From Spirochaetaceae bacterium (GTDB taxonomy: Bacteria; Spirochaetota; Spirochaetia; WTKD01): a DNA stretch of 64,000 bases. Where the stretch lies: contig WTKD01000013.1 in assembly GCA_011524535.1 (NCBI GenBank), positions 1 through 64,000 on the forward strand, read 5' to 3'. The translations under genes and the position numbers were made by a program. The notes beneath the pieces were generated by a model. The model ran no database searches, had not been told where the DNA came from, and was given only the letters and a program-made list of their open reading frames with translations. Below are positions 2,223-63,175 of this stretch, piece after piece (position 1 is the stretch's first letter; each line of letters begins with the position of its first letter).

Positions 2223-2228
2223 AAATTA

Positions 2229-2256
2229 TTGTTATCCCAGAATGATGAAAGGTCAA
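2229..2256 (-). promoter_or_regulatory. candidate near-leaderless promoter of the upp-like gene
   Basis: Minus strand: -35 TTGACC, a 16-nt spacer, -10 TAACAA, then only 6 nt (TAATTT) before the ATG. No purine-rich ribosome binding site exists between them. A transcript starting about 7 nt after the -10 would start at or within the start codon. Confidence 0.5.
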
Positions 2257-2329
2257 GAACGCGCCTTGAGAATCAAAGCCAAGCACTCAAGGGACACTAC
2301 TCGCGATATATTGCAACCGAGTGAAGATG

Positions 2330-2947
2330 TTATCTTTTTCCCTTTCCCCATTTATGTTTCTTTTTGTACTTGTATGACGTATCATCATCAAATAGTCCAA
2401 ATTCATTACGCCTTTCGCTAATGCGTGTCTGAGTAACAGAAATATCATAGCTCAAAAAATCACTCATTTCTTTATCATTTGAATCGATCAACAGTTCGAT
2501 TGTGCTTGTATTGTCGCCGGACACTTCTATTTGCATCGACCACTGGTATTCTTCATGTGCTTCGAGTCCATCAGGGGTTGTAACCTCGTGCGATCCATAC
2601 ATGGGACCCATTCCCGCTGAGCGATAATATACGGTCAGCGCATGCGGTTCTTCAAAATCTTCTCCATAGTTATTCCGAAGCAGAATCTGTACCTCAATCC
2701 AAACATTCATGACTTTGCGCACATACTCATCATGAATGTTGGCGCTCAACGCATAATCTGACCAATCTGAAGTATTATCCGATGATACGTTTTTGAGTTG
2801 CATGTCTTTTACTGAGATTAGATGTATAGGAGGGTCATGCACGATTATGTGCTCCTCTTCTCCGAAGAAAAAAGCGCATCCACCAAACAATCCTATTCCA
2901 ACAATGGACGTCATCAAAGTAAAAAGAATATATTTGAATGTATTCAC
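2330..2947 (-). CDS. hypothetical lipoprotein
   Basis: I do not recognise a family. The 205-residue product has a hydrophobic N-terminus ending in a lipobox-like GLFGGC, then an acidic stretch (FFGEEEH), a beta-rich middle and a strongly basic tail (KYKKKHKWGKGKR). The start codon is GTG, at 2947. It has no Shine-Dalgarno sequence but is preceded by a well-spaced promoter (2954-2982), which supports this start. The gene lies between the tRNA-Glu/Lys pair and the upp-like gene, and is probably monocistronic. Confidence 0.65.
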   Translation of the reverse strand: MNTFKYILFTLMTSIVGIGLFGGCAFFFGEEEHIIVHDPPIHLISVKDMQLKNVSSDNTSDWSDYALSANIHDEYVRKVMNVWIEVQILLRNNYGEDFEEPHALTVYYRSAGMGPMYGSHEVTTPDGLEAHEEYQWSMQIEVSGDNTSTIELLIDSNDKEMSDFLSYDISVTQTRISERRNEFGLFDDDTSYKYKKKHKWGKGKR

Positions 2948-2953
2948 AGAAAT

Positions 2954-2982
2954 ATGTTACACCTACCGATGGATGCATTCAA
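2954..2982 (-). promoter_or_regulatory. candidate leaderless promoter of the hypothetical lipoprotein
   Basis: Minus strand: -35 TTGAAT, a 17-nt spacer, -10 TAACAT, 6 nt (ATTTCT), then the GTG start. No Shine-Dalgarno sequence fits in the gap. Confidence 0.55.
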
Positions 2983-3051
2983 GTATGTATAGCACAGCGG
3001 CAAAAAACGACTCCTCCACATGTCGGTACAAGAGAGATGGAAGTGTAACAC

Positions 3052-3123
3052 TATCTCCTAGGGGAGTCGAACCCCTGTTGCTGGACTGAAAACCCAGAGT
3101 CCTAACCACTAGACGAAGGAGAC
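3052..3123 (-). tRNA. tRNA-Glu (anticodon TTC)
   Basis: Minus-strand cloverleaf. Acceptor GTCTCCT pairs with AGGAGAT, closing with a G-T pair, then discriminator A. The anticodon stem-loop CTGGG-TTTTCAG-TCCAG gives anticodon TTC (glutamate). The T-arm is AGGGGTTCGACTCCCCT. It lies 27 nt downstream of tRNA-Lys and is probably co-transcribed with it. CCA is not encoded. Confidence 0.95.
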
Positions 3124-3150
3124 AAACAAATTTTTTTGGAATAAATTCCT

Positions 3151-3223
3151 TGAGCCGCACAGGGTTCGAACCTGTGACCTTCGCCTTAAAAGGGCGTCGC
3201 TCTACCAACTGAGCTAGCGGCCC
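3151..3223 (-). tRNA. tRNA-Lys (anticodon TTT)
   Basis: Minus-strand cloverleaf. Acceptor GGGCCGC pairs with GCGGCTC, then discriminator A. The D-arm is GCTCAGTTGGTAGAGC. The anticodon loop CTTTTAA gives anticodon TTT (lysine). The T-arm contains CAGGTTCGAACCCTG. It is the first gene of a Lys-Glu tRNA pair with its own promoter upstream. CCA is not encoded. Confidence 0.95.
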
Positions 3224-3235
3224 GCTCAAATAGAG

Positions 3236-3263
3236 TGTATATATCCAAAATGATCCTTGTCAA
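3236..3263 (-). promoter_or_regulatory. sigma70-type promoter of the tRNA-Lys/tRNA-Glu pair
   Basis: Minus strand: consensus -35 TTGACA, a 16-nt spacer, -10 TATACA, then 12 nt to the mature tRNA-Lys 5' end. Confidence 0.65.
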
Positions 3264-3277
3264 CTGCTACATATATG

Positions 3278-3910
3278 TTAATTTGCATTTTCTTGCGTTA
3301 ATCTGTTTATCGCTTCGCGGGCAGCGTCAGAAGAACTATTTATTTCCAAAGCCCTTTGATAGGCGGTTATTGCACGATCAGATTCTCCTAAAGTTTCCCG
3401 TATCTGCCCCAAAAATTCCCACCAAACGGCATTCCCTGGGTTGTAGTACGTTGCAGCGCTGAGACTTATTTCTGCATTTCTTAGATTACCGAGCTCTGCA
3501 TAGGATATACCCATGTGATAGTGTATCTGATCGATATCATTTCCGTTTGGAGCAACTCGTAGATAGCGCAAACCAACATCAAGGGCTTGTTCAAAATTTT
3601 CAAGAGCTATATGAGCCTCAGCGAGAATATAAACAACTCGGCTGTCAAAAGAATTAACCAAAATGGCAGCATTCATATCTACTACGGCATCTTCGTAGCG
3701 GCGAAGAGCCAGTAGGCTCCAACCTCTCACGGTATAGGCATCCATGTTTCTAGGATTTGCTTCTAATTCCTGAGCCGTTACCGCAAGTGCATCCGTGTAT
3801 TGTCCGTTTCGATACATATTTAACGCATCGAGCTGAACTTCATCATTTTCTTGCCCAAATGCATAAAAACAAAGAAAAAAGAGACATACCAATACAGCTC
3901 TTGTTTTCAT
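3278..3910 (-). CDS. secreted TPR-repeat protein
   Basis: The 210-residue product starts with a signal peptide (MKTRAVLVCLFFLCFYAFGQ) with no lipobox at the cleavage site, so export to the periplasm is likely. The mature part is a run of TPR helix pairs (for example YTDALAVTAQELEANPRN, YEDAVVDMNAAILVNS, SDRAITAYQRALEINSS) covering most of the chain. It overlaps the end of the upstream bactofilin gene by 4 nt, so the two are translationally coupled. A scaffold or envelope role alongside the bactofilin is an inference from context. Confidence 0.8.
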   Translation of the reverse strand: MKTRAVLVCLFFLCFYAFGQENDEVQLDALNMYRNGQYTDALAVTAQELEANPRNMDAYTVRGWSLLALRRYEDAVVDMNAAILVNSFDSRVVYILAEAHIALENFEQALDVGLRYLRVAPNGNDIDQIHYHMGISYAELGNLRNAEISLSAATYYNPGNAVWWEFLGQIRETLGESDRAITAYQRALEINSSSDAAREAINRLTQENAN

Positions 3911-4278
3911 CTGGATGTCGTTACACCAGCATCTTCTGCTTGACCTACGATGTATTCACCACGCAACACAGCGCCCCGTTGCATTAAGACATGTTTCGCA
4001 CGAACGTTTCCAGAAATCTTTGCTGAGTCGTAAATTTCCACTGTGTCTTTGGCGTGAATATCTCCGTGTATGCTTCCATACGTGACCACGGTTTTTGCAT
4101 GAACATTCGCTTTTACCGTTGCATTCTTACTGACATATACCTCAACGGTAGAATCTACACTTCCTTCTACTACACCCTGTATTAACACCACTTCTTCTGT
4201 GTGTATACTCCCATCGAAGGATAAGTCACTTGAAAGAAGAGTATCATTGCTAATTTCTTTACTTTTCGATTTCGCCAT
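3907..4278 (-). CDS. bactofilin (polymer-forming cytoskeletal protein)
   Basis: The central part is the short beta-helical bactofilin repeat, with hydrophobic residues alternating every few positions (VEGSVDSTVEVYVSKNATVKANVHAKTVVTYGSIHGDIHAKD). Short polar tails flank it, as usual for this nucleotide-independent filament family. Length (~123 residues) is typical. The track start is a TTG; I prefer the ATG giving MAKSKSKE, preceded by GAGG at proper spacing. It overlaps the end of tyrA by 20 nt. In spirochetes bactofilins are linked to cell shape; that role here is family knowledge, not shown by the sequence. Confidence 0.85.
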   Translation of the reverse strand: MAKSKSKEISNDTLLSSDLSFDGSIHTEEVVLIQGVVEGSVDSTVEVYVSKNATVKANVHAKTVVTYGSIHGDIHAKDTVEIYDSAKISGNVRAKHVLMQRGAVLRGEYIVGQAEDAGVTTSR

Positions 4279-5092
4279 CTCGTGCCTCAAGTATATCGCT
4301 CATTTTTGAGTCGATCAATTCAACCAAGGAAGTCGTCTTGTCTAAAAAATGCTCGCGCATCGATTGTGCATGTGGATTATACATATGCATATCGTAAAAC
4401 AATTGCTCAGAATCATTGCCGGTTTGGGTTACTATTTCGGTGAGTGCCCTATATCCCTTCGTTGCGTAATCAATACCCCGCAATGGAAGGTCTCCAAGTA
4501 TTCGACCAACAAAATGCGTGAGACATTGCGTGTATGCCATCAACTTGTCATGTTCCTCTGGCTCCATTTCCTCTAATGTAAAAGGAAAAACAGAAAAAAA
4601 GTCGTGAAATCTTTGTTTTTGCTCGGCTGTTGCCCGCACTGAACACGTAATAACACGCATAGGAATATTCGGCTGGTAGGAGTCTGGACCAAATAGAGGG
4701 TGCGTTCCGATTACTGGTATATTTTCATCGAGGCAAGCAACGATGTTTTCAAGGGGATATTGTTTTACCGAACAAGTATCTGCAATGATAGTACCAGGTT
4801 CAATATACTGCGCCAGGCTCCGTATGACAGGCAGGGTTTCTGATATCGGGGTACAGAGAAAAATCAGATCACATTGCACAAAATCATTGACCGGTGACAT
4901 TCTATACCCGGCATTCTCAGAGACGGGTTTTGAAATAGACTTTATTGGATCAGCAACAAGAACTTCGTGCCGCTCGGAGAGTATCTGCGCCCATAATTTC
5001 CCAAATCTTCCGTACCCATATACACCGGCAATCATGACATATTGTATGGTGATAGTTCTTTTTTGCATATATAAGACCGACGACAGGCTCAT
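4259..5092 (-). CDS. tyrA: prephenate dehydrogenase
   Basis: This enzyme oxidatively decarboxylates prephenate with NAD(P) to 4-hydroxyphenylpyruvate for tyrosine synthesis. The N-terminal Rossmann motif GVYGYGRFGKLWA is followed by FLCTPISETLPV, ADTCSVKQYPL and IGTHPLFGPDS, the TyrA-family signature His-Pro-Leu-Phe-Gly-Pro. There is no fused chorismate mutase or ACT domain. The start is uncertain: the first ATG (5092) puts 22 residues before the Rossmann motif, while internal Met9 or Met20 would fit a typical TyrA better; none has a clear ribosome binding site. It is divergent from dapB. Confidence 0.85.
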   Translation of the reverse strand: MSLSSVLYMQKRTITIQYVMIAGVYGYGRFGKLWAQILSERHEVLVADPIKSISKPVSENAGYRMSPVNDFVQCDLIFLCTPISETLPVIRSLAQYIEPGTIIADTCSVKQYPLENIVACLDENIPVIGTHPLFGPDSYQPNIPMRVITCSVRATAEQKQRFHDFFSVFPFTLEEMEPEEHDKLMAYTQCLTHFVGRILGDLPLRGIDYATKGYRALTEIVTQTGNDSEQLFYDMHMYNPHAQSMREHFLDKTTSLVELIDSKMSDILEARDGEIEK

Positions 5093-5132
5093 CGTGTTGA
5101 CACTATTTTTGCGTAGTTATTCACTAAAACAT

Positions 5133-5885: not shown

Positions 5886-5895
5886 GAGTCAAAAT

Positions 5896-6771: not shown

Positions 6772-6815
6772 TTGTATCAACCCTTTCTTAAATACCAGTG
6801 TTGTCTCTATAGAAT

Positions 6816-6837
6816 GCTCCATGGAGGTCTATGGAGC
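6816..6837 (+). terminator. possible terminator hairpin after dapA
   Basis: GCTCCAT-ggaggtct-ATGGAGC is a perfect 7-bp stem followed by TATATTTTGT on the plus strand. It lies between the converging dapA and ksgA-like genes and overlaps the 3' end of the latter. The T-tract is interrupted, so strength is uncertain. Confidence 0.4.
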
Positions 6838-10645: not shown

Positions 10646-10675
10646 GAATATCCCGCCTTGTAGTGACAATCATGA

Positions 10676-10705
10676 TTGACCATACCTACAATTTTACAAT
10701 ACAAT
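10676..10705 (+). promoter_or_regulatory. candidate near-leaderless promoter of the first TlpA gene
   Basis: -35 TTGACC, an 18-nt spacer, -10 TACAAT, 9 nt, then the ATG at 10715. No Shine-Dalgarno sequence lies before the ATG. It would give the first TlpA gene its own transcript apart from ccdA. Confidence 0.5.
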
Positions 10706-10714
10706 AATCTCGTT

Positions 10715-11296
10715 ATGATTAGTGGGAACCAGCACAGAACTTCTCTATTTTTTATTCGTAGAGTAATTTTTCTGTTGATCATTACTATAGCATTCATCTC
10801 TTGTGACAACTCCGAAGCTAAGCTCGATGAAATTCGCAGAATATTTGCCTCGATAGGCCTCGATAACCCGAGTGGTCAGGTATTTACAGATGCAGAAATC
10901 TTAAACTCTTCAGAATCCCGAGAATTTATTATCTCAGACCCAGATTCTTTTACATTTGTTTTTTTTGGAGCCTCTTGGTGTCCTAGCTGTCAAAAAGAAT
11001 TACCAACCATAGAGGCATTACAGCGATCACTCAGCGAAAACGTCGCAGTCAAATTTGTATTCATAAGCGAAAACCCCGGTACCGTTGCCAGATTTATGGA
11101 AAGCAATAACTATACTGTTCCATATATGTTAGACAGGCGGGCCCTTGCGGCCTCTTCAAATGCGGTTGAAAAATATCCAACCGCGTATTTAGTGTCCCCA
11201 AAAGGAAAGACCATTTTTCGTGTAGAAGGTCTTTTTGATTGGTCCGACCCTATTTTGCTGTCAGCCATTGAAGATTCACTAGAAATTTGGTATTGA
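10715..11296 (+). CDS. TlpA/ResA-like thioredoxin-fold lipoprotein
   Basis: A thioredoxin-fold protein with redox motif GASWCPSCQKELP and a late cis-Pro region (EKYPTAYLVSP). The start is set at the ATG giving MISGNQHRTSL; the track start, TTG at 10676, lies in the promoter -35 box. The N-terminus is basic then hydrophobic and ends in IAFISC, a lipobox, so it is probably membrane-anchored outside the cytoplasm. The segment LDEIRRIFASIGLDN before the redox domain is shared in pattern with the next gene (KVKRIFNDIGMNT), indicating tandem paralogs. The likely role is disulfide reduction with CcdA. Confidence 0.82.
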   Translation: MISGNQHRTSLFFIRRVIFLLIITIAFISCDNSEAKLDEIRRIFASIGLDNPSGQVFTDAEILNSSESREFIISDPDSFTFVFFGASWCPSCQKELPTIEALQRSLSENVAVKFVFISENPGTVARFMESNNYTVPYMLDRRALAASSNAVEKYPTAYLVSPKGKTIFRVEGLFDWSDPILLSAIEDSLEIWY

Positions 11297-18020: not shown

Positions 18021-19304
18021 CGGAAGAATATCCGCAGATGTCCGAACAAAAGCATCAGGATATCCGCTATTGCGAAGCGTATAGAGCAAAAGCCCTTTCT
18101 CATCTTCGATAACAGGTCCGACCAATACCAACTGTGTGTTCCCTTTCTCAACTATCATTCCTTCAAAATGAGGAGAAACGGATGATAGAACGGATTTTGC
18201 AAAGGCTGGGTCTCGAAAAGCACCTATTTGGATATAATCCCCTTCTCTCTCAACAAATTTCTGCTCGGTGAAAAGCTCTGGATTTCCATAATCCTCAACC
18301 GGTTCAGACTCAGGGATATCCTGATTCGGAATAACCAAAAAAGATTCCTCTGGAATTTCCGGTAGAATATCTGGTTCTTGTGTAATAACTCCTGGCACTT
18401 CAAAGTCATCAACAACAGGAGGAACCTCTTCAATCACTAGGCTATCTGGCACAATTAAAGCGACTTCTTCAGGGGCCTCTTCGACATCTGATTCCAAGAC
18501 ATCGGGTATATCTACTATCCCATCGTCATCTGATGGAGTTCGAATATTTGAAGGAAAGTCAGCGAGTACATCCGGGACAATAGTTTCAATTTCTTCTTCG
18601 GGTGCTTCACTAGCTTCTGGAATAACAAATTCCTCCACAGGCTGATTTTGAACAGATAGAAAAGTATCCGCAAACACATCGGGGCCTTGGAGCGCCTCCT
18701 CCACTGAAGATGCTTCGCTCACTTCGGGAATTGCAAAATCACTTTGGGAATCGCCCCCTTCCACCGGCACCTCATCATATACATCAATTTCAGGAACGAG
18801 GTCTTCATTAGCAGGTTCGGGTATTGGAATGCTTTCGGTGGTTTCAGCAAGCAAGATATCGTCCAGAATTTCGTAAGCATCACTCGATTTACTCAAGAAA
18901 TTAGATTCAAGGGGTATTTCGAGCTGAGCTATTTCTTCGACTGGCTCGGGTAATTCCTCCTGAAATGGTGTTTCATCTATGGTTGCAGAACTGGAATCTA
19001 TTCGTTCAACCTGAATGAGAGTTGGTTCGGTAACCTTCAATAACTCGGCAAGCTCCGGTGATAAAAGCATTGTGTTGCCGATTGGTCTTAATGGCGCGAG
19101 TACTCTTCCCTGACCAACAATATTATTAGCTCCATTGCGCATCGTTACTCGTGCTCCTTCTTCAAAGGCATAAGAGTAGAGAAAAAAACCAGGTTGGGCA
19201 AAATCAGACTGCAACCCTGGCGCCGCAAGAGTTCTATATACGGCCTGTGCATTGATAAAAAAAGTGCCACATAATAACGACACACAGATAGTTAAGACCT
19301 TCAT
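18009..19304 (-). CDS. secreted SPOR-domain protein with acidic Pro/Glu-rich repeat region
   Basis: A signal peptide (MKVLTICVSLLCGTFFINAQA) leads to an N-terminal domain of ~110 residues (EEGARVTMRNGANNIVGQGRVLAPL) that may be beta-barrel-like. A long low-complexity acidic part (~residues 120-350) has degenerate repeats such as IPEVSEASSVEE, IPEASEAPEEE and IPDVLESDVEEAPEE. The C-terminus is a SPOR domain (GDYIQIGAFRDPAFAKSVLSSV ... GPVIEDEKGLLLYTLRNSGYPDAFVR), which binds glycan strands stripped of stem peptides at division sites. It overlaps the convergent acyl-CoA synthetase gene by 12 nt. A TATAAC box sits 5 nt before the ATG. Confidence 0.8.
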   Translation of the reverse strand: MKVLTICVSLLCGTFFINAQAVYRTLAAPGLQSDFAQPGFFLYSYAFEEGARVTMRNGANNIVGQGRVLAPLRPIGNTMLLSPELAELLKVTEPTLIQVERIDSSSATIDETPFQEELPEPVEEIAQLEIPLESNFLSKSSDAYEILDDILLAETTESIPIPEPANEDLVPEIDVYDEVPVEGGDSQSDFAIPEVSEASSVEEALQGPDVFADTFLSVQNQPVEEFVIPEASEAPEEEIETIVPDVLADFPSNIRTPSDDDGIVDIPDVLESDVEEAPEEVALIVPDSLVIEEVPPVVDDFEVPGVITQEPDILPEIPEESFLVIPNQDIPESEPVEDYGNPELFTEQKFVEREGDYIQIGAFRDPAFAKSVLSSVSPHFEGMIVEKGNTQLVLVGPVIEDEKGLLLYTLRNSGYPDAFVRTSADILPLIQ

Positions 19305-19385
19305 AACTGGTTATAGTTTCGGATCAATATAATTATTGATTACATATTTAGTGCATATGTCACCAAATAAGGGTATACTCGATCT

Positions 19386-20819
19386 ATGAAACGCCTCCAT
19401 GTACTGGGTATGGGGAATGCGGGTCGCATTATTTTGGAAAAGATCGATGTTTTTTTTCCATCTGTTGAATCAATTTTCTGTTATGATGATGATACTCTGA
19501 AAATAGGCTCAACCATAGCAGGACATCGCGTAAAGGGCTCAATAGACAAAGAACTTCAGAATCAACGTTTCAATTCGATGGATGCCGCTATATTAGCAAT
19601 GCCCAGTGCGAAAAAACAACGGATAGCAGACCTCTATTTTATTTTGAGGAATTTATATTGCGAATGCATATACGTTCTCCCCAATTCTGCGACTATTTTA
19701 GAAGGCGATGTATTCAATGGAAACATTCATCGCATTCGTCCCGAAGACGTGATCGGGCGTCCTTTTCACCCTCTACAACTTGGACTACATCAAAAACAAG
19801 CAAATACAAAAACAGTTTTGATCACTGGGGCAGGAGGCAGTTTGGGTTCCGAATTGGCCAAGCAAGCGCTTTGGCTATCCTTCAAACATATCTACTTACT
19901 CGGACACGGGGAAACCAGTATTGTCCGCATCCTACGTACGTTGCAAAGTCTCCAACGCGAAGGATTATCGCCAGATACGCGTATCACGCCATTAATTGTT
20001 GATATGAAAGATAAGATGAATCTGCGTCATTGCTTGCATGAATCCAATCCCGACATCGTAATACATACAGCCGCTCATAAACATGTCCTATTGATGGAAT
20101 CAAATCCATATTCTGCATTTGCCAACAACATAGTATCAATGATACATCTTTTCGAAATTTTGAATGATATGAATGTAGACAGAATCCTTCATGTCTCAAC
20201 CGATAAAGCAACCCAGCCTCGATCAATATATGGGAAATCAAAAATCATTGCTGAAGAGCTGGCATTAAATACTGCTTTACCTACTACAGTTGTTCGTTTT
20301 GGAAATATATTATCTTCTCGAGGCAGCCTTTCGGAAGTAATCGAGAACCACTCGCCCTCGCAAAGCCTTCAACTTACCGATCCAGAATCAGAACGCTATT
20401 ATATGAGCGCTTCAGAAGCCGCATCCTTGATTCTCCGGGTCATCTTTGATGGCGATACACATACGATATATGGCCTCGAAATGGGAGAACCTGTAAAACT
20501 ACGTGATATGGCAGATATGCTTCTTAGATTCTTCTTTCCCCATGCCCATCGATCTATTGAAACATCGTACGAAGGTCTAGCAAAATCAGAAAATTTTTCT
20601 GAAATGATGACGGATACCGATGAAATCCGAAAGGATACCAATATTCCACGGGTGCAAATAATTGAACATCGTGATGGAACCACTAATATCCCTAACCCCT
20701 TGTATTATAAAGAGCTATGCGAACTCTTAATCGATACCATTGACCCAGGAACCAATTTTTCTGAATTGTTTCAAAAATGCACAGAGTTAAAAGTGACCAA
20801 TGTGCACCATGTCCACTAA
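19386..20819 (+). CDS. nucleotide-sugar 4,6-dehydratase/epimerase (CapD/FlaA1-like) with N-terminal nucleotide-binding-like domain
   Basis: The C-terminal ~330 residues are a short-chain dehydrogenase-fold sugar enzyme: LITGAGGSLGSELAKQ (NAD binding), HTAAHKHVLLMESNPY, VSTDKATQPRSIYGKSKIIAEEL. The YGKSK tyrosine-lysine pair is intact, as in inverting PseB-like dehydratases; long membrane CapD/WbpM proteins usually have Met at this Tyr. The first ~120 residues form a separate Rossmann-like domain (HVLGMGNAGRIILEKI) without the membrane helices of CapD. It is followed by an aminotransferase gene, so the pair probably makes an amino-deoxy sugar for surface glycan or flagellin. TATACT lies 6 nt before the ATG. 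Confidence 0.8.
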   Translation: MKRLHVLGMGNAGRIILEKIDVFFPSVESIFCYDDDTLKIGSTIAGHRVKGSIDKELQNQRFNSMDAAILAMPSAKKQRIADLYFILRNLYCECIYVLPNSATILEGDVFNGNIHRIRPEDVIGRPFHPLQLGLHQKQANTKTVLITGAGGSLGSELAKQALWLSFKHIYLLGHGETSIVRILRTLQSLQREGLSPDTRITPLIVDMKDKMNLRHCLHESNPDIVIHTAAHKHVLLMESNPYSAFANNIVSMIHLFEILNDMNVDRILHVSTDKATQPRSIYGKSKIIAEELALNTALPTTVVRFGNILSSRGSLSEVIENHSPSQSLQLTDPESERYYMSASEAASLILRVIFDGDTHTIYGLEMGEPVKLRDMADMLLRFFFPHAHRSIETSYEGLAKSENFSEMMTDTDEIRKDTNIPRVQIIEHRDGTTNIPNPLYYKELCELLIDTIDPGTNFSELFQKCTELKVTNVHHVH

Positions 20820-22099: not shown

Positions 22100-22129
22100 T
22101 TGACGTATCCACTCTCAAATAGCTACGTT
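22100..22129 (+). promoter_or_regulatory. candidate leaderless promoter of dnaE
   Basis: -35 TTGACG, an 18-nt spacer, weak -10 TACGTT, 5 nt (AACAT), then the GTG start at 22135. There is no Shine-Dalgarno sequence. Confidence 0.4.
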
Positions 22130-22134
22130 AACAT

Positions 22135-25100
22135 GTGCTCATTCCACTTCATGTTCATTCAGACTACAGTTTGCTGAGATCCCTCCTACGCGTTAAAGAA
22201 ATAGTTTCGCACGCAGTCGAACAAGGAAATACCCATGCATGCATATGCGATGAGGGCAATCTATTTGGTGTTATTCCTTTCGTGCGAGCCTGTTTATCAG
22301 AACAAATAACCCCAGTGATAGGATGCGAATTCGCCATCGCACCGCGTGGGCGAGACAAGAAATCAAAAATAGAAAACAAATCAATGGAAAATACGATTCA
22401 ACTTATTGCCCAGAGCAATGAGGGGTTCCAGAATCTTTCTATGCTTTCGTCCTATGCCTATACAGAAGGGTTTTATTACCGCCCGCGAATCGATGATGAA
22501 CTGCTTGCTAAATACAACAAAGACCTATTATGTATACAGGGTGCCGCCCGCAGCGATGTTGGCCTTGCTCTCCGAAAAAATCAGCCCGATACTGCCCACA
22601 AACGGATCGAGTGGTACATAAACCTATATGGTGCGGAGCATGTCTACCTTGCACTCTCGAAAAACGGTACGGCTGAGCAGGATACCCTCAATCTAGAACT
22701 TGAAAAACTTGCAATGGAATACAAGCTGGCTACTGTTATTTGTAACGAAGCCTATTATAAGCATCAGGATGACGCCGATGCACACGATATATTGATTCGC
22801 ATAGGGCAAAACAGAAAAAAAGAAGGGTCTGGAATTCTATTCCCATCCCGTGAATTTTATCTTAAAACCGAAGAAACAATACGCAAAGAATTTCCATCGC
22901 ACGAGGAAGCCATACATAACACTGTGAAAATTGCGGAATCTTGTACAACCGTCTTTGAACATCTCGAACCTCAGCTTCCCGAATACGCTATTCCCGAGGG
23001 GTTCAAAGACTCCGCCGAATATTTGAAACACCTTGCCTTTGCAGGTCTTTCAGAACGATACCCCGTTGTTACCGATACGCATCGAGAGCGTTTAGATTTT
23101 GAATTGAACACCATTATAACCATGGGCTTTGTGGGATATTTTTTGATTATTTGGGATTTCGTACAATATGCATTGGCTCAAGGCATACCCGTCGGCCCAG
23201 GCAGGGGTTCAGGAGCAGGTTCCCTGGTTGCCTATGCACTTCACATTACCGACATAGACCCCTTGCAGTACGGTCTTCTTTTCGAACGATTTTTGAACCC
23301 CGAGCGAATATCTATGCCCGATTTCGATATAGATTTCTGTATAGATGGGCGCCCTGACATTATTCAATATATAACAGAACGGTATGGTCAAAATAACGTC
23401 AGCCAAATTATCACATTTGGAACCCTAAAAGCTCGTGCTGCATTAAAGGACGTTGCAAGAGTCATGGGCCTTCCCTTTGGTGATGTGAATAATCTGGTAT
23501 CGTATATCCCTTACATACTAAATGAAAGCCTTGTTGATGTGTTTAAACATCAGAAATTCCTAAAAAAATACTATACGAATTCCGCTGATTATCGTAAATG
23601 CGTACATATTGCTGAGAAACTCATAGGACTAAATAGGCATGCTTCAACACATCCAGCCGGAATCGTAATAGGAAAAAAGAATATTATTGATTATCTCCCG
23701 TTATATCGGGATCCTCGATCTGGATTAATTTCGACTCAATATTCAATGGATGCTCTCGAAGAGTTTGGTCTAATAAAAATGGACATTCTCGGATTAAAAA
23801 CACTTACTATCATGAAGAATGCAGAAAAAATGATTAAGGAATATGCTCCTAGCTTTTCTCTCGAGAAATTAGACATACACGATGCCGAAACATACGCCAT
23901 GTTGTCCGAAGGAGAAAGTCGAGGCATCTTTCAACTTGAAAGCGCAGGCATGCAACAAATTTTGCGGCGAACAAAACCGGAACGCATCGAAGATATCACG
24001 GCAATCAATGCATTGTACCGCCCTGGCCCTATGCAGTTTATAGACATGTACATCGACAACAAAAAAAATAGTGGAGATTTTGAATATCTTATCCCCGAAG
24101 TGGAAGAAATACTCGAAGAAACCTATGGCATAATAGTATATCAAGAACAAGTCATGCAGATTGTCCAAAGAATTGGAGGGTTTTCTCTCGGCGAGGCTGA
24201 TATTATGCGAAGGGTTATGGGCAAAAAGAAGAAAAATGAGATGGCAGCCATTCGAAAAAAATTCGTACAAGGAGCCCTCAAACAAGGATACAAAAAAGTC
24301 CGTTCCGAAAAAATATTCGACATACTAGAGCCTTTCGCAGGGTATGGATTCAATAAATCTCACGCTGCAGCATATGCTCTTCTTGCGTTCAAGAATGCGT
24401 ATCTAAAAACTCATCACAAAGCATCCTTTTTTGCAGCGTGCTTGAACTGTGAATACAAATTCCCCGATAGCTTTGCATCTTTTATTGAGATGGTGCAAGA
24501 CTACCATATTCCACTCATTGCACCCGATGTAAACATTTCACACAGGGAGTTTACGGTTCGAGGCACCCAGGAAATAGTATTTGGGTTCATTGGAATAAAA
24601 ACAATAGCTGAATCTATTGCACAAGAAATTGTTAGAGCACGAAATTCACACCCTTTCACATCAATGAACGATTTTCTCACCCGTACGGATTTAAGCATAT
24701 TACGGAAATCGGCCATTACAACCCTTATTCGCATTGGAGCCTTCGATTCGATATCAAATAATCGAAAAAAACTGTTTTTAGAATTCGATTCATCCTACGA
24801 AGCCATTCAACAACAAAAACAACAAGTGAAAACTGGGCAGCCCTCATTATTTGATGTCGAGGAGCTTTCTGAGGAGAAAAACATCGTCATCGAAGACTGG
24901 ACGATGGAAGAAAAACTGCATCACGAAAAACAATTTCTTCATTATTACGTCAGTGGAAACCCTCTCGATAGATACTCTATCGCCCAAAAACAATTATTGT
25001 ATAGTTCATCTCAAAAAGATAGAGAATTAATCGGTGTATACGAAGAGAAAGGACGTTTCACAACCAAAAAAAATAAGGAAATAGTGACCGCAAAACTAGA

Positions 25101-28184: not shown

Positions 28185-28213
28185 TTGCCAGCAGCCGATC
28201 TGCACAGTATAGT
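28185..28213 (+). promoter_or_regulatory. candidate leaderless promoter of the HMA-like gene
   Basis: -35 TTGCCA, an exact 17-nt spacer, -10 TATAGT, then 5 nt (GAGTC) to the ATG at 28219. This is one of the clearest cases in the window; there is no space for a ribosome binding site. Confidence 0.6.
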
Positions 28214-28218
28214 GAGTC

Positions 28219-28464
28219 ATGAATAAACTTGTAGAATCAATCATTGATCTGAAGGGAGCGCAATGTACCTCCTGCAGCATAGCGATTTCACATATGGCTC
28301 GAAGATTGCCTGGCATTGAAGACGTTATCCACGATAAGCGCAGCAACACATTGCGTGTAGCACATTCTGGAGATAAAACAAACATACAAAAAATTTGTGA
28401 ATATGTACAAAGAATTGGCTACGAAGCATACCCTAGGGCAGAAGAAAAAAAGCTAAAAAATTGA
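28219..28464 (+). CDS. small heavy-metal-associated (HMA)-like domain protein
   Basis: An 81-residue protein with the ferredoxin-like HMA layout: metal-site motif GAQCTSCSIAIS (CxxC at residues ~15-18), GIEDVIHDKRSNTLRVAH, and the closing KICEYVQRIGYEAY. In copper chaperones and metal-ATPase N-domains the CxxC binds Cu(I) or similar metals. The usual Met before the first Cys (MxCxxC) is Gln here (AQC), so metal preference may differ. No metal ATPase is nearby. It is transcribed from its own promoter and followed by a hairpin terminator. Confidence 0.75.
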   Translation: MNKLVESIIDLKGAQCTSCSIAISHMARRLPGIEDVIHDKRSNTLRVAHSGDKTNIQKICEYVQRIGYEAYPRAEEKKLKN

Positions 28465-28541: not shown

Positions 28542-29159
28542 CTATTTAGAGTAGTATTCTACGATCAATTGTATTTCAGCTATCACTGGTATTTTGTCGG
28601 CTGGAGGCACCGCATGCACAGATACGGTCAGATCGTCTGGCGACACGCCTATCCATTCTGGAATTTCACGTATTGAATTCTCAGACAACAACCTACGACA
28701 AAGATCTACAACATTCTTCTTCGGGCGAACCTTTAGAACATCTCCAGGACGAAGCTGGATAGAAGGTATATCTACACGGCGATCATTTAACAAGAACTGA
28801 CCATGCGTGGCAAGTTGCCTGGCTTGATTCCTACTACATGCAAATCCAGCGCGATACAACACGCTATCTAACCGTTGTTCGAGCATAACCAACATGTTAT
28901 CACCAGTAACCCCTTTCTTAGACTTTGCTTTAAAAAAGAGATTTCTAAACTGCTTCTCTGATAGGCCGTAAGAAAATTTTAGTTTTTGTTTTTCAATGAG
29001 TTGCTTACCAAATTCACTAATACGTTTACGACCCCTACGCATCTGCGCACCAGGTGGCTTTGGCTTCCTCTTGAGTAGCCTATCGTATTTAGCGTTTCCA
29101 AAAATATTCTGTCCGAATTTACGGACTAGTTTCCCGCGTTTAATGCTATTTCTTGCCAT
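28542..29159 (-). CDS. rpsD: 30S ribosomal protein S4
   Basis: A primary 16S rRNA-binding protein of the small subunit. Seen: the basic N-terminus MARNSIKRGKLVRKFG, GLSEKQFRNLFFKA, and the S4 RNA-binding domain LEQRLDSVLYRAGFACSRNQARQLATHGQFLLNDRRVDIPS. The length of 205 residues is standard. The N-terminal zinc-binding cysteines of some S4 forms are absent. It stands alone here, away from the alpha operon, with its own promoter just upstream. Confidence 0.97.
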   Translation of the reverse strand: MARNSIKRGKLVRKFGQNIFGNAKYDRLLKRKPKPPGAQMRRGRKRISEFGKQLIEKQKLKFSYGLSEKQFRNLFFKAKSKKGVTGDNMLVMLEQRLDSVLYRAGFACSRNQARQLATHGQFLLNDRRVDIPSIQLRPGDVLKVRPKKNVVDLCRRLLSENSIREIPEWIGVSPDDLTVSVHAVPPADKIPVIAEIQLIVEYYSK

Positions 29160-29170
29160 ACTGAATTAAA

Positions 29171-29199
29171 ATTCTAGCATATCAAAATAATAGAGTCAA
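29171..29199 (-). promoter_or_regulatory. candidate near-leaderless promoter of rpsD
   Basis: Minus strand: -35 TTGACT, a 17-nt spacer, -10 TAGAAT, 11 nt (TTTAATTCAGT), then ATG. No Shine-Dalgarno sequence is present. The predicted 5' leader is only about 4-5 nt, unusual for a ribosomal protein gene. Confidence 0.55.
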
Positions 29200-46951: not shown

Positions 46952-46955
46952 GAGT

Positions 46956-53260: not shown

Positions 53261-53471
53261 CGTGTTTATAGAGTACTTCACCAGAAAGAACTTCATCGAG
53301 TGCGATAATAACAGCCTTGACGTTTTTATCAACACGCCTCGAAGTTCCAATCAGTTCTTTTCCGTATATTTTCCGGAGCTTGGTAACCTGTGTAGCTCTG
53401 GTTATCACCGCAGACGTTATTTCATACACGTTACTATCAAAATCAACTAATTGACCTAGTGGAAGTTTCAT
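53253..53471 (-). CDS. rpoZ: RNA polymerase omega subunit
   Basis: A 72-residue protein with the omega pattern: LVDFDSNVYEITSAVITRATQVTKLRK followed by NVKAVIIALDEVLSGEV. Omega assists beta' folding and (p)ppGpp response in many bacteria. It is first in the long minus-strand block, with a near-consensus promoter whose -10 ends 7 nt before the ATG and no Shine-Dalgarno sequence. Its stop is overlapped by miaA. Confidence 0.85.
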   Translation of the reverse strand: MKLPLGQLVDFDSNVYEITSAVITRATQVTKLRKIYGKELIGTSRRVDKNVKAVIIALDEVLSGEVLYKHVG

Positions 53472-53478
53472 TATAATA

Positions 53479-53507
53479 AATATACAAAGAAAACAGGTTC
53501 ATGTCAA
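53479..53507 (-). promoter_or_regulatory. leaderless-type promoter of rpoZ
   Basis: Minus strand: consensus -35 TTGACA, an exact 17-nt spacer, -10 TATATT, 7 nt (TATTATA), then ATG. This is the strongest promoter match in the window. A start site at the normal distance would fall on the first base of the start codon. Confidence 0.65.
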
Positions 53508-56286: not shown

Positions 56287-57183
56287 CTACAAAAATGTCA
56301 AAATAATGATACTGACGACGATAATCCCAGCCCCAATTAATTCATGTGCATATAGGGTCTCTCGAAATACAAATCGGGAATAGGCAATCGACAAGGGCAT
56401 TTGTATCTGACCCAGTGCGGTAACATAGGATGCATTTATGAGTCCAAAAGCAAGGTACCAAGTGACCGAAGAGAGACAATTTGTCAGTCCAATGATACTT
56501 GCTTTTCCCATATTACGCCTCACCGAAGCCAATGCTCCCTTATCCCATATCAAAAAACGCAGCGATAGAACAATTACCTGCAGAATAATTGTAACCAGTA
56601 ATGTTGTACTCGACGCCATGAGTATACTACTTGCTTCCAATTGTAAAATAGACTGACGAATACAGAGAGCGGTCAATGAAAAAAAAGTTCCTATGAGGAG
56701 CCCGATTCTCGTACTCTCATTTTTTCTTATATCAAAAAAACTTCGAATGCTCATCGATTCTTTTTTTAGGGATATCAGCAAAATCCCAGAAAAACTGGTA
56801 CAGATAACCACAAAAGCCCATGGGTTCAACGCTTCTGAAAACAAAATCCACCCCAGCAATGCAGTCTGGATACTATCAGATTTACCGTAGCAACTTCCAA
56901 TCATAAAGCTACGCAAGGCAAATGCCTTCAGCATTAATGTTGATGCAATAATCTGAAACGTGCCCCCGGCAATAGCAAATAACCAAAATTGCCAAGTATA
57001 TGCATATACAGCTTCCCCCAGAACAATAACTAGAACGACATAATATATACTCAAAAAGGGAAGTGCAAAGACACATCGAATCCAAGTGACAACAAGGCGG
57101 GGTATTGATTGTGCCAATTCTTTTTGTATAGCATTTCGCGTGGTTTGGAGAACAACTGCGATCAAACCATAAATCATCCACAT
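56287..57183 (-). CDS. EamA/DMT-superfamily membrane transporter
   Basis: About ten hydrophobic helices arranged as two repeats, as in EamA/RhaT-like exporters of metabolites. Seen: WMIYGLIAVVLQTTRNAIQKEL at the N-terminus, ALLGWILFSEALNPWAFVVICTSFSGILLISL closing the first half and YSRFVFRETLYAHELIGAGIIVVSIIILTFL closing the second. The start is the ATG giving MWMIYGL, which has a leaderless-type promoter immediately upstream; the track start would add 25 residues across that promoter. Substrate unknown. Confidence 0.8.
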   Translation of the reverse strand: MWMIYGLIAVVLQTTRNAIQKELAQSIPRLVVTWIRCVFALPFLSIYYVVLVIVLGEAVYAYTWQFWLFAIAGGTFQIIASTLMLKAFALRSFMIGSCYGKSDSIQTALLGWILFSEALNPWAFVVICTSFSGILLISLKKESMSIRSFFDIRKNESTRIGLLIGTFFSLTALCIRQSILQLEASSILMASSTTLLVTIILQVIVLSLRFLIWDKGALASVRRNMGKASIIGLTNCLSSVTWYLAFGLINASYVTALGQIQMPLSIAYSRFVFRETLYAHELIGAGIIVVSIIILTFL

Positions 57184-57189
57184 TCTGTG

Positions 57190-57218
57190 AGTATATCGGT
57201 GAGATATGTCTCTCTCAA
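57190..57218 (-). promoter_or_regulatory. leaderless-type promoter of the EamA transporter gene
   Basis: Minus strand: -35 TTGAGA, a 17-nt spacer, -10 TATACT, 6 nt (CACAGA), then ATG at 57183. There is no Shine-Dalgarno sequence. Confidence 0.58.
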
Positions 57219-57410
57219 TCGAACGTAACACGAGGGCAACTGCGTAGAGCAAGCGCAAATCTACTATTACTCATGCAGAAAAATAGAAATAGTTAGAGAA
57301 ATTCTTTCTAGTGATGGCGGTTAAAGAATCTTTACAGGCATCTCCCCAAGACATGCCAAAATGGGGGAAAGCGATACAGAATGCTGTATTTGATATCTAG
57401 TGGAATTTAT

Positions 57411-58792: not shown

Positions 58793-60080
58793 ATACTTCC
58801 TCGGAAACTTCAAGAAACAATGGAAAATGCGAAGCAAACTCACGTACCGTCTTTCGTATCGAGTCCAAATCGTCTCCCTGAAGCGTTCTTGAAATAAGTT
58901 CTGCTATGGTGTGCATATCCGTTTCCTTCATTCCCCGTGTCGTTACAGCGGGAGTACCCAAACGTATTCCTGAAGTCGTTAATGGACCATTTGGGTCGTA
59001 GGGAATCATATTTTTATTTACTGTAATACCAACTGAATCAAGAATGCGCTCGGCGTCCCTGCCTGTAATTTTTTGACTCCGTAAATCTAATAATACAATA
59101 TGGTTATCGGTACCACCACTCACAGCCATCATCCCTTTACTCTCGCAAGCTTCAGCAAGTGCCTGTGCATTTGCACAGACCTGGTGTTGGTATTGAACAA
59201 AGGCCGGTGTAGCCGCTTCACTAGCACATACTCCCTTCGCTGCAATAATGTGCAGAAGAGGTCCTCCCTGGATGCCTGGAATTATCGAAGCATCGAGTAA
59301 TTCCGACATGCGTTTTGTTCGTCCTGATTTTTGAGCAACAACGCCAAATGGGTTATCAAAATCTTTTCCCATAAGAATAATGCCGCCTCGTGGTCCTCGA
59401 AGGGTTTTATGCGTCGTACTCGTAACAAAATGTGCATGCTCTACGGGAGAGGGGTGGAGACCGGCTGCAACGAGTCCCGCAATGTGTGCCATGTCTACCA
59501 ACAAAAGAGTATCAAACTCATCGGCCAATGTTCTGAATGCGGCAAAATCTATAATCCGTGAATAACTCGAAGCGCCAGCAATAAGAATTTTCGGACGATG
59601 CTTCGCAAGTTTTGCCCGAACATCATCAAAATCGATAGTATGAGAGATCCGGTCGACCGTGTAAGAAACCGCATGAAACCATTTACCCGAAATGCTTACG
59701 GAAGAACCGTGCGTAAGATGACCTCCATGCGCTAAATCCATTCCCAAAATGGTATCTCCAGGTTTGAGAGACGCAAAATATACCGCAAGGTTTGCACTAC
59801 TTCCAGAATGAGGCTGGACATTGACGTATTCTGCCTGAAATAAAGCCTTAAATTGCTCTTGAACTTCGTGTTCGATCTTATCAACTACCTCACACCCTCC
59901 ATAATAACGCTTTCCTGGGTATCCTTCAGCGTATTTATGCGTCAACACCGAGCCACACACCGACCGGATCGTGGGAGAGACGAAATTTTCAGAAGCTATG
60001 AGCTCCAGTCCATTTTTCTGTCGCTCTTCTTCTTCCATTATGAGAGATTGAAAATAATTAATAGTGTTACGGTTCACCAC
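58782..60080 (-). CDS. glyA: serine hydroxymethyltransferase
   Basis: A PLP enzyme interconverting serine and glycine with tetrahydrofolate. Seen: NGLELIASENFVSP, LTHKYAEGYPGKRYYGGCEVVD, DLAHGGHLTHG, LLVDMAHIAGL and the PLP-lysine motif TSTTHKTLRGPRGG (~residue 226). 432 residues, normal. The start codon is GTG at 60080 (a second GTG follows at once), with no ribosome binding site but a promoter ending 7 nt upstream. The regulator gene overlaps its stop. Confidence 0.94.
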   Translation of the reverse strand: MVNRNTINYFQSLIMEEEERQKNGLELIASENFVSPTIRSVCGSVLTHKYAEGYPGKRYYGGCEVVDKIEHEVQEQFKALFQAEYVNVQPHSGSSANLAVYFASLKPGDTILGMDLAHGGHLTHGSSVSISGKWFHAVSYTVDRISHTIDFDDVRAKLAKHRPKILIAGASSYSRIIDFAAFRTLADEFDTLLLVDMAHIAGLVAAGLHPSPVEHAHFVTSTTHKTLRGPRGGIILMGKDFDNPFGVVAQKSGRTKRMSELLDASIIPGIQGGPLLHIIAAKGVCASEAATPAFVQYQHQVCANAQALAEACESKGMMAVSGGTDNHIVLLDLRSQKITGRDAERILDSVGITVNKNMIPYDPNGPLTTSGIRLGTPAVTTRGMKETDMHTIAELISRTLQGDDLDSIRKTVREFASHFPLFLEVSEEVYAK

Positions 60081-60087
60081 TGTGAGA

Positions 60088-60117
60088 ATAGTAATTCTTA
60101 ACGTATCTATTGGTCAA
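60088..60117 (-). promoter_or_regulatory. leaderless-type promoter of glyA
   Basis: Minus strand: -35 TTGACC, an 18-nt spacer, -10 TACTAT, 7 nt (TCTCACA), then GTG. The -35 box lies within the 3' end of the upstream gene. Confidence 0.52.
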
Positions 60118-61531
60118 TATTACCCTGTGGTAATCCATCGGTAACAAAGAAATATCTACCATTCGCAGAATATGCATACTCGGTTGGCGGTAGTAGTTGA
60201 ACGGTGTGTCTAACGTCTTCACCAGCTTCTGATACAAAAAAATCATGAAGTTCGAGCCTAATATGTCTGTTACTAGAGAAAAAAAATGTTTCAACACCTG
60301 CTAGGTCCGAATCCTGTACAAGCATGCGAGTAAAATATATATCAAATGGAACCCAACCCACTCCAAATACAAAATATTCGGTCCATTGATAAGGGATTAA
60401 GCGTGTATCAAATATATACCCTGACACACGCCTGGCTGGTATCCCAAGTCTCCTCAAAGATTGCAGTGTAATTAAAGAAGCATCATTCGATGAAATAATA
60501 TGCTCTTCTATAAAAGCAACATCCATACGCTCCGCAATCGTAATGACATCTTCCAAATCAGAACCATCTAGCCCTCTAACTAGAGTATCAACCAATGATT
60601 CTAACTCCTCACCTAGAAATTCCTCACGTGTATATGTTTGATAGAATTTTGACGCATACTGATTTTCGACTTCTAATGCCTCTATCTGCCACACCGCTCG
60701 CTGCCTTACAACATGCACCGACATATGCTCATGGACAGGTTCTGAGATGTAGTAAATGGGAGGCAAAACTTCCGACATACTGGGATCAACAAACTGGAGT
60801 TCTGGATGATTAAGTAATCGCGGAACAAGAATTCCTACTCGACTCCCACCCATATCTTTCTCCGTTACCATGATCGTTTGCACCAAAAAATATGCTCGTG
60901 GTAGATCATATATAACTGGGATTTCATCCGTATAGGACACATTTATTTCAAACTCCTTCGCAGGGGTATGGATAGAAATTTTTTGAGGTTGCGTAGCGGG
61001 AACTTGAATAGATATTTCATCATCTGTTTTGTAATCAATATATATGTCATCAAGAACTTCTATTCTGCCATCTCCAAAATGCATATATACCCGCAGGGGT
61101 TTACTTATCACTGTAGAAGACAAGGAAATATTCACGAGATCCCCTATGCTTACTTCCTCTTCTCCAAGTGAAACAACAGACTCCTCTTCCTCACGCACCG
61201 TAATGGCCTCATTCCTCAAAAAGAGGACCTCGTTACTTCTTCGTGTTTTTTGTTTAATAGAAATCAGTCCAGAAGAAAAGGATTCTGGAATTAAAAATCG
61301 AATTTCGTCATCATTCCATTCAACGATGCTTTTTCTATCGAGTGGTTGGGCATTTAAGAAAATATCGCTTGGTTCACTACCGAAATGTCTTCCTCTAAGC
61401 GCAACCATACCCTGATAAGTGTATTCAACACCTAGTGTCTCTATCCAAGGTTTTCGAGCATCAACAATAACCCAAATCATTATTGCAAACACACAGATCG
61501 ACGTCAAAAGATAGATGCCACGTCGAACCAT
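60107..61531 (-). CDS. transglutaminase-like protein with IPT/TIG-like domain, catalytic residues lost
   Basis: One N-terminal membrane helix (GIYLLTSICVFAIMIWVIV) leads to an extracytoplasmic chain. Residues ~35-105 look like an IPT/TIG beta-sandwich (LGVEYTYQGMVALRGRHFGSEPSDIFL), with a second beta-rich part after it. Residues ~345-410 match the transglutaminase-like core: LQSLRRLGIPARRVSGY ... YQWTEYFVFGVGWVPFDIYF. By position the catalytic Cys is Ser (SSNDASLI) and the His is Tyr (YQW for HAW), while the Asp is kept. It is therefore probably a non-catalytic binding or scaffold protein. Last gene of the ECF sigma operon. Confidence 0.75.
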   Translation of the reverse strand: MVRRGIYLLTSICVFAIMIWVIVDARKPWIETLGVEYTYQGMVALRGRHFGSEPSDIFLNAQPLDRKSIVEWNDDEIRFLIPESFSSGLISIKQKTRRSNEVLFLRNEAITVREEEESVVSLGEEEVSIGDLVNISLSSTVISKPLRVYMHFGDGRIEVLDDIYIDYKTDDEISIQVPATQPQKISIHTPAKEFEINVSYTDEIPVIYDLPRAYFLVQTIMVTEKDMGGSRVGILVPRLLNHPELQFVDPSMSEVLPPIYYISEPVHEHMSVHVVRQRAVWQIEALEVENQYASKFYQTYTREEFLGEELESLVDTLVRGLDGSDLEDVITIAERMDVAFIEEHIISSNDASLITLQSLRRLGIPARRVSGYIFDTRLIPYQWTEYFVFGVGWVPFDIYFTRMLVQDSDLAGVETFFFSSNRHIRLELHDFFVSEAGEDVRHTVQLLPPTEYAYSANGRYFFVTDGLPQGNIDQ

Positions 61532-61533
61532 AG

Positions 61534-62139
61534 TTAATTACCAATATCTATTTTTAACACTAATGTATAATCGGTGGTCTTGGGCGAATCACTAGAGCTC
61601 ACGTCTTGTGATAATAAATTTTCAAGCTCTCTCCCCATTCGAGAAATAAAATCAGAAAACAGCGTTCTCGCACTGTTTGTATCGTTCGTATCCCCCAAGG
61701 GGTATATTTCGACCGTCGTTCCCCTCTTTACAGGCAGACTTCTGCGAAACGTTCTAACGGTTATTTCTTCTTTTGTTTTATTTTCTACAAATATTTTCAT
61801 ATTTGTAAGGAGAACATATTCACCATTCATTTTTATAACAGAAAGATTTGCTTGCATCTTCACATTCGTCCCGGAAATATTTAATCGAACTGGTCGCTCT
61901 TCTCTCGAAACACCAGCACGTTTTGCGATATCCTCAACGACAACTCCTTTATCGTTGAGTACTCTTACCGAGATTTCCAAAGGGAGTGCAACAAAGCTCT
62001 CCGCTGGAGAAATACCGTATTCAAGAAGGTATATTCTTCCCTGAAAAAACTCGGATGGGCTCTGCAAGCCTCCCTCCATGGCAAAAGAACCAGAGACTAC
62101 CATCACTATCAAAACACCAATAATGATTGATATTCTCAT
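61534..62139 (-). CDS. hypothetical secreted protein of the ECF sigma operon
   Basis: No family recognised. A signal peptide (MRISIIIGVLIVMVVSGSFA) precedes ~180 mostly beta-forming residues (VALPLEISVRVLNDKGVVVEDIAKRAGV, VRLNISGTNVKMQANLSVIKMNGEYVLLTNMKIFVEN) and ends LVLKIDIGN. There are no cysteines in the mature part. It overlaps the upstream membrane protein gene by 4 nt and lies 2 nt before the pseudo-transglutaminase gene, so all are co-translated; an envelope partner of both is the best guess. Confidence 0.65.
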   Translation of the reverse strand: MRISIIIGVLIVMVVSGSFAMEGGLQSPSEFFQGRIYLLEYGISPAESFVALPLEISVRVLNDKGVVVEDIAKRAGVSREERPVRLNISGTNVKMQANLSVIKMNGEYVLLTNMKIFVENKTKEEITVRTFRRSLPVKRGTTVEIYPLGDTNDTNSARTLFSDFISRMGRELENLLSQDVSSSDSPKTTDYTLVLKIDIGN

Positions 62140-62606
62140 GGACGGGAGACGGAGGGAGTTCCTTTTATAAAGAATTCTGTTTCATCAGGGAGAATTATCT
62201 CCAATGCTTCACCATCCGGGAATAAGTCATCTACATGAGAAAAAGATATTTCATCCAACTCCACATCCTGAAACTGCGCTTGGATCTCAAGTTGTTGAAA
62301 AGGAAATATGTATAGAAAAAAAGCACCTGCAACGCAAGTTCCGAGAAATATATAACTAAGTCTCTCAAAATGGAATTTCACTACAGACAAAAAGCGTGTC
62401 CACATAGACCGCCGTTTTCTTTCCTGAGCTTTGACAAGATGTTTTACTCGGTTCCATACCTCCGATCGAGAACGTTCTACACGCAATCCATCCGCGTCAT
62501 GTGAGCAATCAGTTCGATTTAGATGGGCGATATATGATTCGTACAAATCATCTACCGATGATTTTGTTTTTCTACGACGTGAGTCTTTCATATGCTTCCG
62601 AACCAT
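62136..62606 (-). CDS. single-pass membrane protein, candidate anti-sigma factor
   Basis: A basic cytoplasmic N-terminal part of ~75 residues (RRRKTKSSVDDLYESYIAHLNR, RSRSEVWNRVKHLVKAQERKRR), one helix (LSYIFLGTCVAGAFFLYIFPF), then ~55 acidic extracytoplasmic residues. Position directly after an ECF sigma gene, with overlap, and this topology are typical for anti-sigma factors. However, the HxxxCxxC zinc motif of common anti-sigma proteins is missing, so the role is inferred from context only. Start may be Met1 or Met6 (62591). Confidence 0.6.
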   Translation of the reverse strand: MVRKHMKDSRRRKTKSSVDDLYESYIAHLNRTDCSHDADGLRVERSRSEVWNRVKHLVKAQERKRRSMWTRFLSVVKFHFERLSYIFLGTCVAGAFFLYIFPFQQLEIQAQFQDVELDEISFSHVDDLFPDGEALEIILPDETEFFIKGTPSVSRP

Positions 62607-63108
62607 AATACTTTAAAACAAGTTCAGCGATTTTTTTTCGCGCACGAAACATCCTTACCTTTACATTGCCTATACTTACACGGAGCGTTTTAGCTATTTC
62701 TTTATAAGAAAAACCTCCATACTCATACATCACAAGAATTTCCCTATAACGAGTTGGCAATAAGTCTATTGCCGTTTTCACCATGTCTGCGGTTTCATGG
62801 CGAAGAAATTCTTCATCAACACTTTTCGTAGTTTGAGAACTTTGAAAAAATAGTTTCTTGTAACTAACCTTTTCTCTCTCTTTACGTTTGGATAAGTTAA
62901 TCGCTAAATTCTTAGAGACTCGCATCAACCAGTACTTGGCATAATCCGTTTTCGAAAGTCGATCGTGGTGATCAGCATATCGTATAAACACTTCCTGCGC
63001 CACGTCCTCAGCTTGATCATAACTTCTAAGGATGGCATATGCAGTTTTATACACAACCGAGAAATGTTCTTTATATGCGTCTTCTATTGATAATAACGTG
63101 CTCTTCAT
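62572..63108 (-). CDS. ECF-type RNA polymerase sigma factor
   Basis: 178 residues with sigma region 2 (YDQAEDVAQEVFIRYADHHDRL, YAKYWLMRVSKNLAINLSKR) and region 4 (LPTRYREILVMYEYGGFSYKEIAKTLRVSIGNVKVRMFRARKKI, a helix-turn-helix). Regions 1 and 3 are missing, as in ECF sigmas. Head of a four-gene operon: sigma, membrane protein, secreted protein, pseudo-transglutaminase. Divergent from murB across 67 bp containing the 10-bp palindrome CCAACGTTGG (63131-63140), a possible control site. Confidence 0.88.
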   Translation of the reverse strand: MKSTLLSIEDAYKEHFSVVYKTAYAILRSYDQAEDVAQEVFIRYADHHDRLSKTDYAKYWLMRVSKNLAINLSKRKEREKVSYKKLFFQSSQTTKSVDEEFLRHETADMVKTAIDLLPTRYREILVMYEYGGFSYKEIAKTLRVSIGNVKVRMFRARKKIAELVLKYYGSEAYERLTS

Positions 63109-63136
63109 CTCTGATGTTTTATAAACTACTCCAACG

Positions 63137-63166
63137 TTGGTAATGTTACACCTTTTTTATGATAAT
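63137..63166 (+). promoter_or_regulatory. candidate near-leaderless promoter of murB
   Basis: -35 TTGGTA, an 18-nt spacer, -10 GATAAT, 9 nt, then ATG at 63176. There is no Shine-Dalgarno sequence. It overlaps the CCAACGTTGG palindrome in the ECF sigma/murB intergenic region. Confidence 0.4.
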
Positions 63167-63175
63167 ATACACAGT

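Follow-up and report, generated by a model that had tools for sequence, protein, structure and literature searches.

Promoters at start codons and a predicted leaderless gene class in a deep-branching Spirochaetia lineage

About one-sixth of the operon-leading genes in the uncultured Spirochaetia genome analyzed here (G000), or about 10% of all its genes, are predicted to be leaderless or near-leaderless and to be transcribed from housekeeping-sigma promoters at the start codon; we put the probability of this reading at roughly 0.88. A -10 box with -35 elements ends 5–8 nt before the starts of these leading genes so that transcription, given normal sigma70 spacing, would begin at the start codon or a few nucleotides from it. 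The resulting mRNA would have no leader and no Shine-Dalgarno (SD) site, and it would presumably be translated by 70S ribosomes that directly recognize the 5'-terminal AUG or GUG, a mode of recognition established for transcripts of this kind elsewhere among bacteria. SD-led genes coexist in the same genome, and the habit would be this lineage's version of one found in much of Spirochaetia.

The source genome is a 1.42-Mb draft in 14 contigs, 96% complete. The window, a 64-kb stretch comprising positions 1–64,000 of contig 6 (C6), was included in a genome sample of 864 kb (61% of G000). For comparison, we used about 200 kb from each of eight Spirochaetia genomes, all from families other than that of G000, and from each of two genomes outside the class. 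The DnaE protein of G000 showed a best full-length identity of about 43–44% to other Spirochaetia DnaE proteins. Starts in the 864 kb were assigned by an iterated coding-versus-intergenic model that was blind to promoters and ribosome-binding sites, yielding 673 genes, 389 of them operon-leading; the gene finder was home-made, and several starts in the window were misplaced by it. Throughout, the gap is the number of nucleotides between the end of the -10 hexamer and the start codon, and the -10 box in the genome-wide counts is TANNNT unless another pattern is named.

Near-start promoters in the window

A sequence-only reading of the window had listed ten genes preceded by a TTG element, a spacer of 16–18 nt, a -10 hexamer and a gap of 5–11. 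When re-read in the sequence, all ten sets of -35, spacer, -10 and gap were literally correct, and the -10 boxes it had placed ahead of the capD-like and SPOR genes were present as read; one further case, at 5035, lies beyond that list (Table 1). This pattern, with a -10 match to TATAAT at four or more of six positions, was found at 10 of 32 leading starts, as compared with 1.1 in shuffled sequences (maximum 5 in 500 shuffles), a count that rests on the starts chosen in that reading and thus carries selection.

Table 1. Promoter elements ahead of start codons in the 64-kb window
Gene	Span	Strand	-35	Spacer (nt)	-10	Gap (nt)	Start codon	Remark
UPRTase-domain (upp-like)	2222..2256	-	TTGACC (2251-2256)	16	TAACAA (2229-2234)	6	ATG 2222	
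Lipoprotein-like	2947..2982	-	TTGAAT (2977-2982)	17	TAACAT (2954-2959)	6	GTG 2947	
Additional case	5035..5046	-			TACAAT (5041-5046)	5	ATG 5035	no TTG -35
TlpA-like (tlpA1)	10676..10715	+	TTGACC (10676-10681)	18	TACAAT (10700-10705)	9	ATG 10715	
SPOR gene	19304..19315	-			TATAAC (19310-19315)	5	ATG 19304	-10-like, weak
capD-like	19374..19386	+			TATACT (19374-19379)	6	ATG 19386	no TTG -35
dnaE	22100..22135	+	TTGACG (22100-22105)	18	TACGTT (22124-22129)	5	GTG 22135	
HMA-like	28185..28219	+	TTGCCA (28185-28190)	17	TATAGT (28208-28213)	5	ATG 28219	
rpsD	29159..29199	-	TTGACT (29194-29199)	17	TAGAAT (29171-29176)	11	ATG 29159	
rpoZ-like	53471..53507	-	TTGACA (53502-53507)	17	TATATT (53479-53484)	7	ATG 53471	
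EamA transporter (eamA)	57183..57218	-	TTGAGA (57213-57218)	17	TATACT (57190-57195)	6	ATG 57183	
glyA	60080..60117	-	TTGACC (60112-60117)	18	TACTAT (60088-60093)	7	GTG 60080	
murB	63137..63176	+	TTGGTA (63137-63142)	18	GATAAT (63161-63166)	9	ATG 63176	

The starts of dnaE, rpsD, eamA and glyA are supported because the encoded domains begin at the first residues. The GTG of dnaE is fixed by an in-frame TAA immediately upstream and by a PHP domain running from residue 5, and a joint start-and-signal model gave this gene P(TA-led) = 0.81. For rpsD, the conserved S4 N-terminus (S4 domain from residue 7) fixes the start. The EamA domain extends from residue 2 of the transporter, whose P(TA-led) was 0.92. 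The GTG of glyA is favored over an ATG at 60038, because the SHMT alignment starts at residue 12 of the protein, which corresponds to position 10 of the profile.

The remaining cases varied in strength. The -10 box of the upp-like gene is weak, with P(TA-led) = 0.70. This gene (1167–2222, minus strand) encodes 351 amino acids, with a Pfam UPRTase match at residues 89–309; typical Upp proteins are about 208 amino acids long, and the roughly 88 residues N-terminal to the domain indicate that the product is not a plain uracil phosphoribosyltransferase. The HMA match of the HMA-like gene and the Rpb6/omega match of the rpoZ-like gene both fell slightly below the Pfam cut-off. No Pfam family matched the lipoprotein-like gene, the GTG start of which is not independently fixed, the gene finder having favored a later one. 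P(TA-led) was 0.66 for the capD-like gene and 0.10 for the SPOR gene, which the joint model classed as having no signal.

Spacing of -10 boxes across the genome sample

In the 864 kb of G000, 44 of the 389 leading genes (11.3%) had TANNNT at gap 5, where the box begins 11 nt upstream of the start codon, as compared with 3.3% in the control (p = 2e-12) and 3.8% in operon-internal genes. The peak was sharp, with no excess at gap 4. Boxes at gaps 5–7 bore the hallmark of sigma70 promoters, a TTGACA-like -35 element 16–18 bp upstream of the -10: TTG was present at that spacing for 24 of 81 boxes versus 102 of 1,086 box-free positions (p = 1e-6). In the gap-5 set, TTG near -34 and an extended -10 TG were visible, and G was absent from position -1 (0 of 47 versus 39 of 291; p = 0.003), which fits an initiator located at the start codon.

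Other ways of counting gave the same picture. A generic E. coli-like -10/-35 matrix found a promoter at gaps 5–7 in 11.6% of leading genes versus 2.8% at control gaps, an excess of 8.8% (bootstrap 5.7–12.1%). When called starts were disregarded and TTG-(16–18)-TANNNT sites were taken anywhere in the sequence, an ATG that begins an ORF of 50 codons or more lay 5 nt after such a site in 28 cases, against 11.1 per position (z = 5.1). For the 80 G000 genes with unambiguous starts, boxes at gaps 5–7 were found in 20.0% versus 9.7%, and gap 8 was also high; each relative had too few such genes. The joint model classed 25.2% of leading genes as -10-led, as compared with 8.7% after shuffling and 8.1% of operon-internal genes (p = 4e-8 for leading versus internal). 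We estimate the excess at about 64 of the 389 leading genes (about 16%), or roughly 10% of the 673 genes, with about one in three individual -10-led calls expected as background.

The reading of a recurrent leaderless or near-leaderless architecture held in part. When the pattern of that reading was tallied in the 864 kb against shuffled sequence, gaps 5–8 were strongly supported as a class (33 versus 8.4; p = 5e-11), whereas gaps 9–11 were not clearly enriched (12 versus 6.6; p = 0.04). The clearly enriched spacing therefore does not cover tlpA1, rpsD and murB, three of the ten listed genes. Of these, tlpA1 and murB are near-leaderless only, and the gap of 11 at rpsD implies a predicted leader of about 5 nt. 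We also observed a smaller second TANNNT excess at gap 8, in 6.9% of leading genes and 15% of the 80 fixed-start genes, with weaker -35 elements; part of it may reflect overlapping TATA registers.

Alternative readings and Shine-Dalgarno usage

One alternative is that the near-start boxes are real but secondary promoters, and that most transcripts begin farther upstream and carry normal leaders. Promoter-like hexamers do occur farther upstream, at the background rate, and Leptospira has a median 5'UTR of 91–97 nt alongside its leaderless set (PMC5243855). However, selection on a distant leader leaves the tight positioning of box and start, with its peak at gap 5 and nothing at gap 4, unexplained, and it is mainly leading genes that show the excess; we consider this alternative improbable.

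Slightly less probable still is that the start codons are wrong, in which case the true starts would lie farther downstream and each promoter would be followed by a short leader of the normal kind. Start calls are indeed uncertain for some window genes, such as tlpA1 and the lipoprotein-like gene. By contrast, the domains of dnaE, rpsD, eamA and glyA begin at the proposed starts, and a downstream in-frame start preceded by an SD was found in none of the 98 -10-led genes. On this count, we rejected for the set the possibility that starts were mis-called and that an SD-led start lies downstream. Chance or composition, by which AT-rich, low-structure sequence ahead of starts would imitate -10 boxes in a genome of 42% GC with A+T-rich upstream regions, is scarcely credible, given that dinucleotide-preserving shuffles and other gaps yield about three- to fourfold fewer matches, that the boxes are accompanied by -35 elements, and that more AT-rich genomes (G018, 29% GC; G121, 34% GC) show no excess. 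For the entire gene set, this reading is refuted; single genes may still be chance matches, as the shuffled rate of 8.7% against 25.2% implies.

An SD was present in 0% of genes with a near-start promoter versus 20% of leading genes, an absence that is partly forced, because SD and -10 boxes would overlap and compete for the same bases. Operon-internal genes of G000 had an SD in only 35% of cases, versus 44–80% in the other sampled Spirochaetia. This low usage even within operons indicates that many genes have neither an SD nor a near-start promoter. No 16S rRNA was found in the G000 assembly by an Rfam search or a 3'-end pattern, and so the anti-SD sequence is not readable there. Gene callers that rely on the SD will misplace starts of the predicted leaderless kind, and such calls can be corrected with the help of the -10 box.

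Relatives and known systems

Run through the same pipeline, 200 kb of E. coli K-12 had no promoter at gaps 5–7 in 97 leading genes and no excess of -10-led genes (3.1% versus 5.2% shuffled), and Deinococcus deserti plasmid 2 gave 9.5% versus 2.9%. Among the Spirochaetia, -10-led leading genes versus shuffled sequence amounted to 22.4 versus 4.7% in G026, 20.6 versus 7.2% in G024, 18.5 versus 5.9% in G047, 14.9 versus 4.7% in G076, 13.1 versus 6.9% in G007, 11.8 versus 6.5% in G006 and 11.3 versus 6.0% in G020. There was no excess in the Borrelia-sized genome G018 (7.5 versus 5.7%). Outside the class, values were 16.0 versus 3.8% in G168 (54% GC) and 3.0 versus 3.4%, without excess, in G121. 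The bootstrap interval of the promoter excess excluded zero for G000, G024, G026, G047 and G168, and barely for G076. Because the signal was seen across several sampled Spirochaetia, it appears to be common in the class.

Ahead of dnaE, three relatives from families other than that of G000 (L002, L123 and L124) carry TTGA.. and TATCAT separated by 18 nt, with a gap of 6 before a GTG, the same layout as at 22100–22135 of the window, suggesting that the dnaE promoter may be conserved across families. A near-start -10 box also precedes dnaE in L125, L130 and L132; in several further relatives, an SD occupies this place.

The only lineage-specific feature that we found is that G000 favors gap 5 over 6–7. 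Gap 5 accounted for 47 of the 98 -10-led genes in G000, whereas gaps 6–7 accounted for 47 of 57 in G024, G026 and G047 combined, which represent three other families (chi-square p = 7e-8). This difference suggests either a slightly shorter distance from -10 box to start site in G000 or another register of the motif. With the dominant gap, the A of the start codon is the sixth nucleotide past the -10 box, closer than the usual 7 or so, which counts against the leaderless reading. A tentative scenario, which we hold to be possible but doubtful, is that leaderless starts are ancestral and common in Spirochaetia and were lost in Borrelia-like lineages, and that the deep-branching order of G000 picks a start site one base nearer the -10 box. 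The one-base difference between families raises the small question of how RNA polymerase chooses its start site.

Leaderless starts in spirochaetes have already been reported, and G000 adds another lineage of a known kind; with it, a deep-branching uncultured Spirochaetia lineage would join the bacteria with a sizeable leaderless class. In the unrelated phylum of Mycobacterium, a large leaderless class reportedly stands beside SD-led genes, as predicted here, on the basis of experimental start sites. Leptospira belongs to a different class from Spirochaetia, and the habit is indicated in much of the latter and is not special to Leptospira. Differential RNA-seq of Leptospira interrogans, which like G000 belongs to Spirochaetota and combines leaderless with leadered genes, mapped start sites no more than 10 nt away from the start codon for about 440 genes (PMC5243855). 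There, the starts were measured and did not yield a general -10 motif (PMC5243855), whereas in G000 the starts are predicted and -35 and -10 elements are recognizable. A 2011 survey of 953 bacterial genomes, which treated TA-led genes, with TANNNT about 12 bp before the start, as leaderless, predicted such genes in 6 of 18 Spirochaetes genomes, at a mean of 3.9% and a maximum of 6.9% of genes (PMC3160421). By comparison, the share of about 10% in G000 is somewhat higher, although the methods differ, and the preferred spacing is one base shorter. The sequence-only reading had suggested that leaderless mRNAs may not be standard in spirochetes; this is not supported, given the Leptospira data, that prediction and the signal in several of the sampled Spirochaetia. 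In Deinococcus-Thermus, experiments have validated that a -10 hexamer lying a few base pairs ahead of the ORF drives leaderless expression; in Deinococcus, the -10 works alone and adding a -35 merely makes it stronger (PMC12340547), whereas in G000 the TTG of the -35 element is enriched.
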